A DNA stretch of 64,000 bases, from NCBI RefSeq assembly GCF_000169175.1, contig NZ_AAWS01000002.1, forward strand, positions 186,001 to 250,000. Direction: 5' to 3'. A program made the translations under genes and the position numbers. The notes below the pieces were generated by a model. That model was not told where the DNA came from and ran no database searches. It saw nothing but the letters and a program-made list of their open reading frames with translations. The DNA is from Microscilla marina ATCC 23134. Its GTDB lineage: Bacteria; Bacteroidota; Bacteroidia; Cytophagales; Microscillaceae. Positions within the stretch are counted from its first letter, which is position 1. Every line of letters begins with the position of its first letter. This document shows positions 19,714 to 26,705 of this stretch, piece after piece.

Positions 19714-20196
19714 TTATACTTCCACTTCTACCTGAAGCGAAATGGGTAAATGGCTGAAGCTTGCCTGAAGTTGTTCGCCGTATTCGGCTACTTCTTCCTG
19801 ATCGGTGATCCACTCAATGTGTAGGGGTATTTTTACCTTTTGGCGATAATCCGCCAATATACTTATGAGTTGTTTGATGCCTTTAAAAGCGCTCAGGTTT
19901 ATTTGGTCTAGTTGAATGTGAAACTCAATAGGGCAAGTGTTTTCGCTGAGATAGTGGGTCATCCAATCAATAATGGGGGCAAAAAAGGTGTGGTCGTCAT
20001 CGTCAAACGCATTGCCAGTGATCTGAAACAAATTAATGGCCACATCAAAGCAAACTTTTGGCGAACTACTGCTTGCATTGATCAATAAACTTTGCATAGG
20101 TCCGGAGGGCTTGTTTACTCCAGTAGTATTATTAGAAAACAGGCGCTTTCTCAATAAACTACATCTTTGTTTGATGATTTGATACAAAGTTGCCAA
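19714..20196 (-). CDS. SiaC/DUF1987-like protein, divergent copy
   Basis: 160 residues. About 50 N-terminal residues precede a SiaC-type domain: KVCFDVAINLFQITGNAFDD, FFAPIIDWMTHYLSENTCPI, EFHIQLDQINLSAFKGIKQL, a helix, and a C-terminal PISLQVEVEV strand. SiaC proteins are small phosphoproteins that, in Pseudomonas, control a diguanylate cyclase through phosphorylation by SiaB and dephosphorylation by SiaA. Here the phosphosite loop, usually FNTSSS, is reduced to INLSAF, leaving a single Ser, so regulation by that switch may be altered. No kinase, phosphatase or cyclase partner is adjacent. Two other SiaC-type genes are in the window (33723, 61874). Confidence 0.72.
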   Translation of the reverse strand: MATLYQIIKQRCSLLRKRLFSNNTTGVNKPSGPMQSLLINASSSSPKVCFDVAINLFQITGNAFDDDDHTFFAPIIDWMTHYLSENTCPIEFHIQLDQINLSAFKGIKQLISILADYRQKVKIPLHIEWITDQEEVAEYGEQLQASFSHLPISLQVEVEV

Positions 20197-21558: not shown

Positions 21559-22929
21559 CTACCTTGTGCGTAGCCGCTCTGCTACTTTTAGGTCAGTATT
21601 GAGCTGTTCAAAATCATAGTACATGCCTTTTTCGTCCGAACGACTTTCTGCGTCGAGTTCTATGGCTTTTTTGTCAAGCAACTTGCCCAGGTTAGAGTGT
21701 ACGGGTTGTTTGCCAACAGGCACCAAGGCGGTTTGTAATTGTTTGACTTCTTTATCACGGTAAATCTTCTGGTCTACCTGATTAAAAATTACCCTTAGTA
21801 GCTGATTCTCTTCATTTTGAGCGTCTATTCGACGGTTTTCTGACTTCATTGCCTGACGACGCATAAAGGGAATTAACCAAAATAAAAAAGAAAAGGCAAA
21901 GGGGATCATAGTTGTCCAAACATAAAATACATCAGGCAATGTATCTATATTTTCTCCATCAGACACCAGAAATAAAATCAAAAAAGGCGCTACCAAGGAC
22001 ATAATCCAATTAAAAGCATTGACATACATGATGTTATTGTTGGTTTCCTTGTCGTTGTCGTTCATGGGACGGTGAGGAATCGGGCGTTTCCAAATTGGAA
22101 GCACAGCCTGATGTGGGGTGGAGGCTATCAACGGGTTCTTAACTTCCTGCTCATCGTTTGTACCAAGCACTGTAGGGTCAAAATCGGCAAAGGTATACAC
22201 AATTACCCCTTCCTCGGTTACGGTAGCATCGCCGTGGTAGTTGGCCAATAGTTGAGCTGCCTCTTCTTGTGCCTGGCGCACGCTCCATCCAGTCAGTTTT
22301 ACAATTTCAGCTACTACTATTTTGCCTTGGTTTTGGCTAATGAAACGCAATAATTGTTTTTCCAGCTTTAGGTCATCCGTTTTTTGTCGGGTGGCCCCAA
22401 ACACATAAGAAAACACTTGGTGAATGTAGCCATCATCGGACAATATATCTCCTTCTCTGCCTTTCATCAACATACTGAACACATCACGCAGGGCTTTCAA
22501 TATTTTTCCAAGTACTTCGCCCAATATATCGCCGTTGCGGGTAATAATAGCCACAGCAAAAGCCAGCACTAATACATAAAACAGCAAATAGGTAAACAAC
22601 ATGAGTACAATCCATACCTTGAAGAAAAAGGTAAAGCCTTTCCACGCCAGTTTAAACGCCTTTTGGAGCATCATTTTTGGGGTCAATTGCTCCTCGCGTG
22701 ACTCAAAATCGAATACGTACACCAACTCGTGTTTTTCGTTGGTTTCGAGGTGTGCCGGGTAGTCGTCGAGCAAACTACGCACTGCCAGGTCTACCCAATC
22801 TTTAGACAAGCCTGTGCCCACTACCATGTCTAGTTGAGTGGCTCCTTGAGGTTTGGTTTTCAGGAAGTTGACCAGCAGTTTTTTAAACTCCGCTTCGTTA
22901 TAGTCTTTTCGGTCTATAGTGTTATCCAT
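21559..22929 (-). CDS. Membrane protein with three winged-helix-like modules (paralogue 2 of tandem pair)
   Basis: 456 residues; no family recognised. An N-terminal 75-residue module (DYNEAEFKKLLVNFLKTKPQ ... GLSKDWVDLAVRSLLDDYPA ... YVFDF) has a helix-helix-wing feel. It is followed by a membrane hairpin (about 92-135). A second module of the same style is at 180-260 (LLRFISQNQGKIVVAEIVKL, WSVRQAQEEAAQLLANYHGD ... VIVYTF), then two more membrane segments (about 310-365) and a C-terminal third module (LLRVIFNQVDQKIYRDKEVK...). Each soluble module seems to be a wHTH-type fold facing the cytosol. Its start ATG overlaps the stop of the upstream paralogue by 8 bp (ATGGATAA), so the two are translationally coupled and likely made in fixed ratio. 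Confidence 0.82.
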   Translation of the reverse strand: MDNTIDRKDYNEAEFKKLLVNFLKTKPQGATQLDMVVGTGLSKDWVDLAVRSLLDDYPAHLETNEKHELVYVFDFESREEQLTPKMMLQKAFKLAWKGFTFFFKVWIVLMLFTYLLFYVLVLAFAVAIITRNGDILGEVLGKILKALRDVFSMLMKGREGDILSDDGYIHQVFSYVFGATRQKTDDLKLEKQLLRFISQNQGKIVVAEIVKLTGWSVRQAQEEAAQLLANYHGDATVTEEGVIVYTFADFDPTVLGTNDEQEVKNPLIASTPHQAVLPIWKRPIPHRPMNDNDKETNNNIMYVNAFNWIMSLVAPFLILFLVSDGENIDTLPDVFYVWTTMIPFAFSFLFWLIPFMRRQAMKSENRRIDAQNEENQLLRVIFNQVDQKIYRDKEVKQLQTALVPVGKQPVHSNLGKLLDKKAIELDAESRSDEKGMYYDFEQLNTDLKVAERLRTR

Positions 22930-24532
22930 TTCTTATTGTTTTAATTACCTCTAAGTCGGTTTGCACTTCTTCAAATATATAATAAGCCCCTTGTGTGTCT
23001 GCCATACTTTCTGCCTCAAGCTCATGAGCCTTTTGGTCAAGCAATTGGGGCAATTCTTTGTTTCTAAGTTTTTTGCCCTCAGGTACTATTTTTTGTTGAA
23101 GCCCATCCAATACCTCATGTTTGTATAGCTTGCCTGGTATTTGGTCAAATATCACTCCCAGCAATCTGTATTTCTCGTTGATGGCATCTATGCGGCGGTT
23201 GACTGCATTTACTCCAAAGCGACGTAAATTCGGGATAAGCCAAAACAAAAAAGAGTAACAAAAGGGAATAACAAATAGGATAATCAAATATGTTTTATTC
23301 AAAAAAAAGCTTAAGCTTATATCCGAATCATCTTTAAAAGCCCCTACGATCAACATAAAAGTTACCACAAGCATAATAGGTGATAAAAAAGACATCATCC
23401 AATTAAATTGATTGCCACTGACAATGCTGCGGTTGATCTCTTTATCATTGTCGTTCATTCTGCGAGCAGGTAACAAACGTTCCCAAATAGGGGCAGTTCC
23501 TAATTTTACAGCTTCTTCTATTTCCTCAGCATGTGTCTCCCTTAGTTCGGCTTTGGTAGGCAATTGTGGGGCGGGTATTTTTTCTTGTATGTTCTCTCCA
23601 CTCTCATTTTCTGCTTTTGTAACTAATAACTGTGTATGTTCTTCCAACAACTTTTTATGCTCCCTTTTCTTAATTTCAGTCAATTTTTTAGCCCTTAATT
23701 TCTGATTATAGGTTTCTACAAGCTTGTTTATTTCTTGGCTATCTTCTAAATCAGGAAAAGAATACACAATCACTCCCTCATCGGTTACTTCAGCATCGCC
23801 ATGATAGCTTGCCATGAGTTGAGCAGTTTCTTCTTGTGCCTTGCGAATGCTCCAACCAGTAAGTTGTACAATTTCGGCAGCAACGATTTTACCCTTATTT
23901 TGGACAATAAAATTCAATAATAACTTCTCTATCGCCAAATCGTCTGGTTTAGGGGTAGTTTCGCCAAATATGTAAGAAAACATCTGGTGTACAGCACCCT
24001 CATCATCTTCTTGCTCTTCACTAGGGCGTCGGTTCAACAATGCAAAAGCATCTTGTACTATACGTTCTCCTTGTCCCATCACTCTTTCTATAAAGCCACC
24101 TGAACCAAAACCACCTTCATAACCAGCAAACAGTGCAAAGATGCTAATTACAATGAAGAATAAGATTAAAATAATGGCATTGACCAAAAAGTAGGTGCAA
24201 TACATGAGCAGTGTCCATACTTTGAAAAAAACAATGAAGCCTTTCCAAATGCCACGCAACACCTTATTTGCTACCTGTAAGAAGGTAAGGCTTTCTTCTT
24301 TGGCGTCAAAGTCAAACACATAGATGAGTTCATGTTTTTCGTTGGTTTCGAGGTGGGCAGGGTAGTCGTCTAGCAAAGCACGTACGGCAAGCTCGACCCA
24401 GTCTTTAGACAAGCCAGTACCTACTACCATTTCTAGCTGGGTGGCTCCTTGGGATTTGGTTTTCAAGAAGTTGACCAACAATTTTTTAAATGCTTTTTCG
24501 TCGTAGTCTTTTCTATCTATAGTATTATCCAT
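22922..24532 (-). CDS. Membrane protein with three winged-helix-like modules (paralogue 1 of tandem pair)
   Basis: 536 residues. It has the same layout as the next gene: N-terminal module, membrane hairpin (about 95-140), second module (200-265), two membrane segments (about 385-445) and C-terminal module. By eye 69 of the first 80 residues are identical to the downstream paralogue, while the membrane and loop parts have diverged. It carries an extra charged linker of roughly 70 residues (about 272-345, rich in Glu and Lys) and a Gly-rich loop after the first membrane hairpin (GYEGGFGSGGF). The near-identity of the first module against weaker similarity elsewhere suggests strong constraint or gene conversion there. 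Function unknown; the repeated wHTH-like design suggests membrane-tethered DNA or protein binding. Confidence 0.82.
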   Translation of the reverse strand: MDNTIDRKDYDEKAFKKLLVNFLKTKSQGATQLEMVVGTGLSKDWVELAVRALLDDYPAHLETNEKHELIYVFDFDAKEESLTFLQVANKVLRGIWKGFIVFFKVWTLLMYCTYFLVNAIILILFFIVISIFALFAGYEGGFGSGGFIERVMGQGERIVQDAFALLNRRPSEEQEDDEGAVHQMFSYIFGETTPKPDDLAIEKLLLNFIVQNKGKIVAAEIVQLTGWSIRKAQEETAQLMASYHGDAEVTDEGVIVYSFPDLEDSQEINKLVETYNQKLRAKKLTEIKKREHKKLLEEHTQLLVTKAENESGENIQEKIPAPQLPTKAELRETHAEEIEEAVKLGTAPIWERLLPARRMNDNDKEINRSIVSGNQFNWMMSFLSPIMLVVTFMLIVGAFKDDSDISLSFFLNKTYLIILFVIPFCYSFLFWLIPNLRRFGVNAVNRRIDAINEKYRLLGVIFDQIPGKLYKHEVLDGLQQKIVPEGKKLRNKELPQLLDQKAHELEAESMADTQGAYYIFEEVQTDLEVIKTIRNG

Positions 24533-24716: not shown

Positions 24717-26705
24717 ATGGGGGTACAAGAAGTTAAAATAGCTGCCAACCAAAAAGAACTGAACAGGTTTACCCGTTTTTTGCTCAAAGACATTCAGGCA
24801 ATGGAATACATGCTTGAAAACGATTGGTTTGAGCAAGCACCTATCAGAATTGGTGCCGAACAAGAAGTATGTCTGGTTGACGAGCACGGCAAGCCTGCCC
24901 CAAAGTCTATGGAAATACTGGCGGCATTGAATCATCCAAGTTTTACTACCGAACTTTCCAGGTTTAATATAGAAGCCAACCTTAGCCCGGTAGAGTTTAC
25001 AGGCGATTGTTTTAGCAGGGTGCAGAAAGAATTGGATGACTTGATGGACCTCATTCATAAAACCGCCCACGACCTGGAAGCCAGGGTGATTCTCACCGGA
25101 ATTTTGCCTACCATTCGCAAGTTTGACCTTGACATAGAAAACCTGACACCTATCGACCGTTACTATGCTTTATTGCAAGCTATAGAGCGCTTGCGCGGCA
25201 AAGCAGCTTATGAACTCAAGATAGAAGGGCTGGACGAATTGAACCTTAAACACGACTCGGCATTGATTGAGGCGTGTAACACCAGTTTTCAAGTGCATTT
25301 GCAAGTCACCCCTCAAGATTTTGTAAGTAAATATAATATAGCGCAAGCCATTTCTGCCCCCGTGTTGGGGGTGAGCAGCAACTCACCTATGTTGTTTGGC
25401 AAACGTTTATGGAACGAAACCCGCATTGCGCTTTTTCAGCAATCGGTAGATACCCGTATTACCAATGAGCACCTGCGTTACACCAGCCCCAGGGTGACCT
25501 TTGGCAATGGCTGGGTCAAAAACTCCATCTTGGATTTATACAAAGAAGACATTGTGCGTTTTAAGGTATTGCTCACCACCGATGTAAAAGAAGATGTGCT
25601 GGATTCGGTCAAAAACAATAAAACGCCCCAGCTACAGGCATTGAGTATTCACAACTCTACGGTGTACCGTTGGAACCGCCCTTGCTACGGCATCAGCCCT
25701 AACGGAAAACCCCATTTGCGCATAGAAAACCGTATTTTACCTTCAGGACCTACTACCTTGGACGAAGTGGCCAATTCAGCGTTTTGGGTGGGGCTAATGA
25801 ATGGCTTTGAAGAAGCTTACCCAGATGTAACCAAGGTGTTGGAGTTTGACGATGTAAAGGCTAATTTTATAAAAACTGCTCGCACTGGACTGGGAAGCAA
25901 ACACCATTGGGTACACGGCAAAACAGTAAACGACATAGAGTTGATCCAAAAAGAACTTTTGCCCATTGCCCGCATTGGTTTAGAAAAAGCTAAGGTAGAC
26001 GAGAAAGACATTAACAAATACCTCGAAATCATAGAAGATCGCACCGAAACTGGGATGAATGGCTCAAGATGGATACTGAAGTCTTACTCAAAATTGCTCA
26101 AAGAATCGACTAAAGAGGAAGCCACTACAGCTATTGTGGCTGGAATGGCATATAATCAAAAAACAAAAAAACCAGTCCACGAATGGAAACTTGCGAGTAT
26201 ACAGGATATTGCCGATTGGCACCCTACTTCGTTACTTGTCGAGGAATTTATGACTACCGATATATTTACTGTAAGTAAAGATGAAATTCCTGAGTTTAGC
26301 GCCGATATGATGGACTGGCGACGTATCAGGTATTTGCCCATCGAAAACGAGCAGGGGGAACTCATTGGTTTGATTACTTCGAGGCAGTTGTTGAGGCATT
26401 TTTCTACCATGTATAAAAACGAAAAACTGGACTACAGTACCATCAAAGACCTGATGATCAAAGATCCACTGACGATTGCGCCTGAGGCTACTATTATAGA
26501 AGCTATAGACGTAATGAATACCCAAAAAATTGGCTGTCTTCCAGTGGTGAATAACAAAAAGCTGGTGGGAATTATTACCGAAAGCAATTTTTTAAGTATT
26601 ACCTCAAGTTTGCTTAAGCGACTGGCCGCCAAAAAGAAAAAAGCCATTAGAAAAGAAGAGGAAGCCAAACAAGAGAATAACACCGAGCCTGAGAAGGATA
26701 GTTGA
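24717..26705 (+). CDS. Glutamate-cysteine-ligase-like (GCS2) protein fused to two CBS domains
   Basis: 662 residues. Residues about 10-400 form a GCS2/carboxylate-amine ligase domain: IRIGAEQEVCLVD near 44 (the E-x-E metal/ATP region), FNIEANLSPVEF near 83, NTSFQVHLQV near 195, and RIENRILPSGPT near 345. Residues about 505-560 and 573-630 are two CBS domains (VEEFMTTDIFTV...GELIGLITSRQL; IKDLMIKDPLTI...KLVGIITES), a Bateman module that senses adenine nucleotides. The C-terminus is a charged tail. The ligase half would join an amino acid to a carboxylate using ATP; with the Bateman module it could be energy-gated. No gshB gene is adjacent, so glutathione synthesis is not established. Confidence 0.88.
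   Translation: MGVQEVKIAANQKELNRFTRFLLKDIQAMEYMLENDWFEQAPIRIGAEQEVCLVDEHGKPAPKSMEILAALNHPSFTTELSRFNIEANLSPVEFTGDCFSRVQKELDDLMDLIHKTAHDLEARVILTGILPTIRKFDLDIENLTPIDRYYALLQAIERLRGKAAYELKIEGLDELNLKHDSALIEACNTSFQVHLQVTPQDFVSKYNIAQAISAPVLGVSSNSPMLFGKRLWNETRIALFQQSVDTRITNEHLRYTSPRVTFGNGWVKNSILDLYKEDIVRFKVLLTTDVKEDVLDSVKNNKTPQLQALSIHNSTVYRWNRPCYGISPNGKPHLRIENRILPSGPTTLDEVANSAFWVGLMNGFEEAYPDVTKVLEFDDVKANFIKTARTGLGSKHHWVHGKTVNDIELIQKELLPIARIGLEKAKVDEKDINKYLEIIEDRTETGMNGSRWILKSYSKLLKESTKEEATTAIVAGMAYNQKTKKPVHEWKLASIQDIADWHPTSLLVEEFMTTDIFTVSKDEIPEFSADMMDWRRIRYLPIENEQGELIGLITSRQLLRHFSTMYKNEKLDYSTIKDLMIKDPLTIAPEATIIEAIDVMNTQKIGCLPVVNNKKLVGIITESNFLSITSSLLKRLAAKKKKAIRKEEEAKQENNTEPEKDS

Follow-up and report, generated by a model that had tools for sequence, protein, structure and literature searches.

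A tandem pair of predicted membrane proteins with three winged-helix modules each in Microscilla marina

Two neighbouring genes in the window, by which we mean the whole 64,000-nucleotide stretch of Microscilla marina ATCC 23134 analysed here, overlap and encode paralogues that are strikingly alike at their N-termini and much less so beyond. The locus raises the question of what these proteins bind at the membrane, what keeps their first modules alike, and whether neighbouring copies act together.

Gene pair and protein layout

Both genes lie on the minus strand, with the 536-aa gene (22922..24532) first in the direction of transcription and the 456-aa gene (21559..22929) second. The stop of one and the start of the other share 8 bp, ATGGATAA, at 22922..22929 on the same strand; both open reading frames and this overlap, read from the sequence, agree with a previous description of the locus made from the letters alone (the sequence-only reading). 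The pair of the neighbouring species overlaps by the identical length, according to its ORF coordinates (L011), and the two proteins are probably made by coupled translation. Comparison of the 456-aa gene with its 98%-identical ortholog in the second Microscilla genome gave dN ~0.012 and dS ~0.21, so the coding is real; the gene is under purifying selection, and the full open frames of both copies are kept in both genomes. Sigma-70-type promoters and terminators were no commoner than in shuffled sequence, and an operon was therefore not confirmed by that route. Against the second Microscilla genome, the 536-aa gene shows ~99-99.7% identity between 22948 and 24448, with flanks mostly at 92-96% and the upstream gap at 79%. 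The dS between the two genomes is 0.018 for this gene vs 0.21 for the adjacent gene, and on these values the 536-aa gene alone looks like a recent exchange tract.

Each protein consists of three soluble wHTH modules, the first of them N-terminal, set apart by two hydrophobic regions of which the second comprises two segments; the sequence-only reading had described this alternation. In the 536-aa protein, module 1 (24299..24505, minus strand, as are all the following) was placed by per-module family alignment and profile comparison and the first hydrophobic region (residues 98-143, 24104..24241) by hydrophobicity. Module 2 (23741..23944) was located by profile comparison; the second hydrophobic region covers residues 376-436 (23225..23407), and the divergent, wHTH-like module 3 (22943..23215) was again recognised by profile comparison. 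The corresponding features of the 456-aa protein are module 1 (22696..22902), the first hydrophobic region (residues 98-137, 22519..22638, by hydrophobicity), module 2 (22174..22377), the second, two-segment hydrophobic region (residues 300-356, 21862..22032) and a similarly divergent, wHTH-like module 3 (21580..21852, by profile comparison).

The two proteins are identical at 233/534 aligned positions (44%). The first 80 residues share 69/80 (86%), exactly the figure estimated previously, and the module 1 part differs clearly from the remainder (69/80 vs 169/367 identical residues, p = 1e-11). A charged linker follows module 2 of the 536-aa protein (residues 263-347, 85 residues, 39% D/E/K/R, 23492..23746, minus strand) and has a counterpart of 27 residues in the 456-aa protein; its presence had been noted correctly, and the earlier length of about 70 residues gives way to an excess of 58.

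The pair is flanked by aroB and a GCS2-CBS protein in both Microscilla genomes. No conserved neighbour gene was found across genera, so gene order indicates no interaction partner. The divergent neighbour at 24717-26705 fuses a GCS2 glutamate-cysteine ligase-like domain to CBS domains, and a SiaC family regulatory phosphoprotein (PF09345) lies at 19714-20196. A mobile-element origin was rejected after tblastn gave no match in plasmids or phages and none in viral contigs.

Fold and charge of the modules

We built three alignments, one per module, with 18-19 family members each, and compared them by hhalign. The module-to-module probabilities were 98.5, 95.4 and 96.5%, and the scores of 43-72 stand against at most 14.6 in column-shuffled controls (n=90), indicating that modules 1, 2 and 3 are copies of one domain. 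At the level of these profiles, the triplication of a single predicted winged-helix domain in the family is shown. A structure model of module 2 of the 456-aa protein, built on a six-row alignment of window and L040 sequences, reached a pLDDT of ~77-87 over the domain and has the order helix-strand-helix-helix-strand-strand. Among the Foldseek matches listed for it were CadC/ArsR, MarR, TFE, RAP30 and the PCI subunits of the proteasome and COP9; the best had E 0.013 and probability 1.00, and none reached E 0.001 or better. Winged helices were also among the PDB profile matches. The wHTH-like character claimed from the letters is thus borne out for module 2 by model and Foldseek; the other two modules follow from their profile-level homology to it. 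An AlphaFold model of the complete 456-aa protein was discarded as unusable (pLDDT 38 on a 4-row alignment). A distant relative of module 2 is also encoded in the window genome, in a soluble protein of 169 aa that contains two stretches resembling winged helices (L007:1210-1716, G000:C6).

A winged helix in a bacterial protein is usually taken as a sign of DNA binding, and transmembrane regulators of the ToxR/CadC/TcpP type combine a DNA-binding domain with a membrane segment and, in most cases, a sensor in the periplasm. The main rival to a protein-binding scaffold is a membrane-tethered transcription regulator like ToxR or CadC, in which one or more modules would bind promoters while the membrane segments sense a signal. 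The family resembles such regulators in that a single gene encodes a predicted integral membrane protein with a winged helix; DNA-binding winged helices have this fold, and the nearest Foldseek matches include CadC/ArsR and MarR repressors. It departs from them in the alternation of three homologous modules, two of them acidic, with membrane regions, and in having no periplasmic sensor domain. Sub-threshold Pfam matches to MarR_2 and HTH occur in the family (best E ~1e-4, under the cut-off), but no HTH match reaches the curated cut-off, and no conserved neighbouring operon presents itself as a target. Transmembrane transcription regulators are reported to be enriched in Bacteroidota (PMC10269533). 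Taking these points together with the charges given below, we regard the regulator as unlikely.

Mean net charge is -1.7 for module 1, -4.0 for module 2 and +0.6 for module 3, compared with a mean of +1.0 for a control set of 11 MarR-family helices from this genome (p = 0.02 for module 1 and 7e-5 for module 2). Given the acidity of modules 1 and 2, whose recognition helices are mostly neutral or acidic, the tethering of DNA becomes the weaker half of the earlier idea that the pair holds DNA- or protein-binding modules at the membrane. The MarR-family control set contains a few acidic helices too, and some DNA-binding winged helices may carry acidic recognition helices; for modules 1 and 2 the charge favours proteins over DNA as the ligand without proving it. 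Module 3 is on average not acidic and is preceded by a basic segment that might contact nucleic acid or the head groups of lipids.

Relatives that lack membrane segments bear on where the modules lie. A 352-aa member (L079:7966-9003, G004:C382) has all three modules and zero hydrophobic segments, in effect a soluble version, and a paralogue on contig C51 of the window genome is missing the first hydrophobic region. Both relatives suggest that the modules share one compartment, probably the cytoplasm. Acidic modules 1 and 2, together with a relative without membrane segments, point to a cytoplasmic protein-binding scaffold rather than a DNA tether. In agreement with this placement, a mostly basic flank follows the last segment in the members of alignment A1 that were examined, and such a flank usually also precedes the first segment. 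In most members, however, the charge-free core of the first hydrophobic region is only ~20-30 residues long, a length better suited to one crossing than to two; a topology with all modules in the cytoplasm, though the most likely one, is therefore not secure. The winged helices would most likely bind proteins, given their charge and the lack of basic recognition helices.

Among known protein-binding winged helices, those of EAP30/Vps36 (ESCRT-II) and of PCI proteins offer an analogy. The likeness to ESCRT-II EAP30/Vps36/SNF8 and PCI proteins lies in repeated winged helices for protein assembly at membranes, in a weak match of the module 2 profile to SNF8 (E 0.41) and in the Foldseek matches to proteasome and COP9 PCI subunits; it is a likeness of fold, not significant by sequence, and unlike the family those proteins have no membrane-spanning segments. 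Winged helices in ESCRT have been discussed (PMC10936438). In the PDB, the module 1 profile matches best by sequence to the C-terminal winged helix of EutK (PDB 3i71, Pfam EutK_C; E 0.0015), over 42 aligned positions only, and EutK is a soluble microcompartment protein. MarR and ArsR proteins (PF12802, CadC of pI258) share the fold, sub-threshold profile matches and top Foldseek matches, but they are soluble and DNA-binding, whereas the family is membrane-bound, triplicated and acidic.

None of the family members scanned against Pfam exceeded the cut-off, and neither did the two window proteins against NCBIfam, in agreement with the previous remark that no named family is known with this layout; the family is unnamed in Pfam and NCBIfam. 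For the MarR family PF12802, one relative (L015) scored 21.4 bits against a gathering cut-off of 27 and the window proteins gave no match. EAP30/Vps36 (PF04157) matched one relative weakly (E 0.037) and none significantly. PADLOC anti-phage defence profiles gave weak matches only (E 0.008 or worse), and a defence role was dropped for want of a convincing match. We do not class the family as MarR, ESCRT-II or PADLOC defence because these sequence tests failed. By its predicted segments and fold it has the integral membrane protein and winged helix of a transmembrane transcription regulator; we do not place it there because the charge evidence leans against DNA binding. No description of the three-module winged-helix and membrane architecture was found in the open-access literature.

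Distribution of the family

The search for relatives covered Bacteroidota genomes. Relatives were recovered from 26/146 close-relative genomes, from 35/390 genomes sampled across the order and from 12/395 sampled across the phylum, the last including genomes of another class that share the phylum only. The three-module architecture occurs in dozens of genera, usually as one gene per genome, and the overlapping pair in two Microscilla genomes only, that of the window and an uncultured Microscilla genome (L040). The pair is accordingly not confined to a single strain, but the earlier suggestion of a two-protein system co-occurring across Bacteroidota does not hold, most genomes having one copy.

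A tree of 44 sequences resolved two well-supported groups. The first is mostly single-copy and widely spread, and we found no member of it in the window genome. In the second, three families of the order have additional copies; it includes the window pair, which arose by duplication within the genus (tree support 100/99); the C51 paralogue is the third family member of the window genome. Some members carry extra C-terminal domains of ~150-200 residues that matched no Pfam family (L073 and L072, in G009:C13 and G060). On one contig of another genome (G577:C4), two 4278-bp stretches ~270 kb apart are 100% identical, and each contains a 713-aa family member (L114, L120).

First modules in tandem arrays

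Gene conversion might explain the likeness of the first modules, and the sequence-only reading had proposed synonymous divergence along the pair as a check. The window pair showed no dip in the first 80 codons, where synonymous differences at shared residues were 29/66, vs 76/160 in the rest (Fisher p = 0.66). Recent conversion is ruled out in this pair, its module 1 synonymous sites being as diverged as those elsewhere; protein constraint, or a conversion older than synonymous saturation, remains as the apparent source of the likeness.

New here is an independent tandem triple with the same pattern in stronger form. A genome from another family of the order (G060) has three genes of 616-621 aa arranged head to tail, 30 bp apart (L072:7195-12819, G060:C1). 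Over module 1 (~120 first codons near-identical) they show 99-100% identity with synonymous differences of 10-14%; outside module 1 identity falls to 38-59%, and synonymous differences rise to 23-34% in the first hydrophobic region and 46-67% beyond. Taken from module 2 onward they amount to 50-60%, and every comparison of this part with module 1 gave p < 1e-7. Homogenisation starts near the start codon, or in one comparison ~90 bp upstream of it, and stops sharply at about nt 360-390, within the first hydrophobic region. Judged by these synonymous sites, module 1 of the triple is recently gene-converted.

Paralogues that share a genome without lying in tandem, such as G004 C382/C637 and G010 C55/C63, reach only 41-42% identity over module 1. 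Among the single-copy relatives that we compared, the most conserved module is module 2 rather than module 1, which makes the likeness of module 1 specific to arrays. Tandem copies keep module 1 alike in two independent arrays; the pattern is shown, and the rule of a constant first module is drawn from these two. The route was gene conversion in the G060 array and probably amino-acid constraint in the window pair.

One reading of this pattern is an array with a constant and a variable part, where the shared first module serves as a platform, the diversified remainder supplies several recognition specificities, and conversion maintains the constant part. Its occurrence in separate arrays from different families of the order would fit, as would the sharp end of the G060 tract and the array-specific likeness of module 1. 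We nevertheless find it improbable, since the arrays number two, have two or three copies each, and the tract in the window pair is not recent.

Ordinary duplication without joint function, the overlap being a matter of chance and module 1 once converted or constrained separately in each copy, appears equally doubtful to us. Short overlaps are common in bacteria, and the duplication is genus-specific and known from two genomes only; the synonymous sites of module 1 are nevertheless as diverged as those of the rest, so its 86% identity reflects protein selection or old conversion, and the frames of both genes have stayed intact in both genomes with the 456-aa gene under purifying selection.

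The reading we prefer, with a likelihood just short of even, is that the pair are paralogues of an undescribed Bacteroidota inner-membrane scaffold family whose winged helices bind proteins and which form a mixed oligomer through module 1. The three winged-helix modules, interleaved with two hydrophobic regions, would face the cytoplasm; the near-identical first modules would assemble the oligomer, and modules 2 and 3, with the charged linker of the larger protein, may give the subunits different partners. The fixed-ratio heteromer suggested previously is plausible, and the independent triple with its homogenised first module lends it indirect support. A broader version, in which a widespread scaffold uses a triplicated protein-binding winged helix and its arrays hold module 1 in common through gene conversion or constraint while the rest diversifies, yielding mixed oligomers of several specificities, seems to us rather unlikely. 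If the scaffold reading is true, it adds a class of membrane scaffold to a phylum where such proteins lack annotation, and the constant first module in two independent tandem arrays is a testable sign of joint action by neighbouring copies.

Upstream of a copy in the G004 genome, an inverted repeat, GGGTGCATTTCAAATTTA...TAAATTTGAAATGCACCC (L078:147-232), is possibly a small mobile element.
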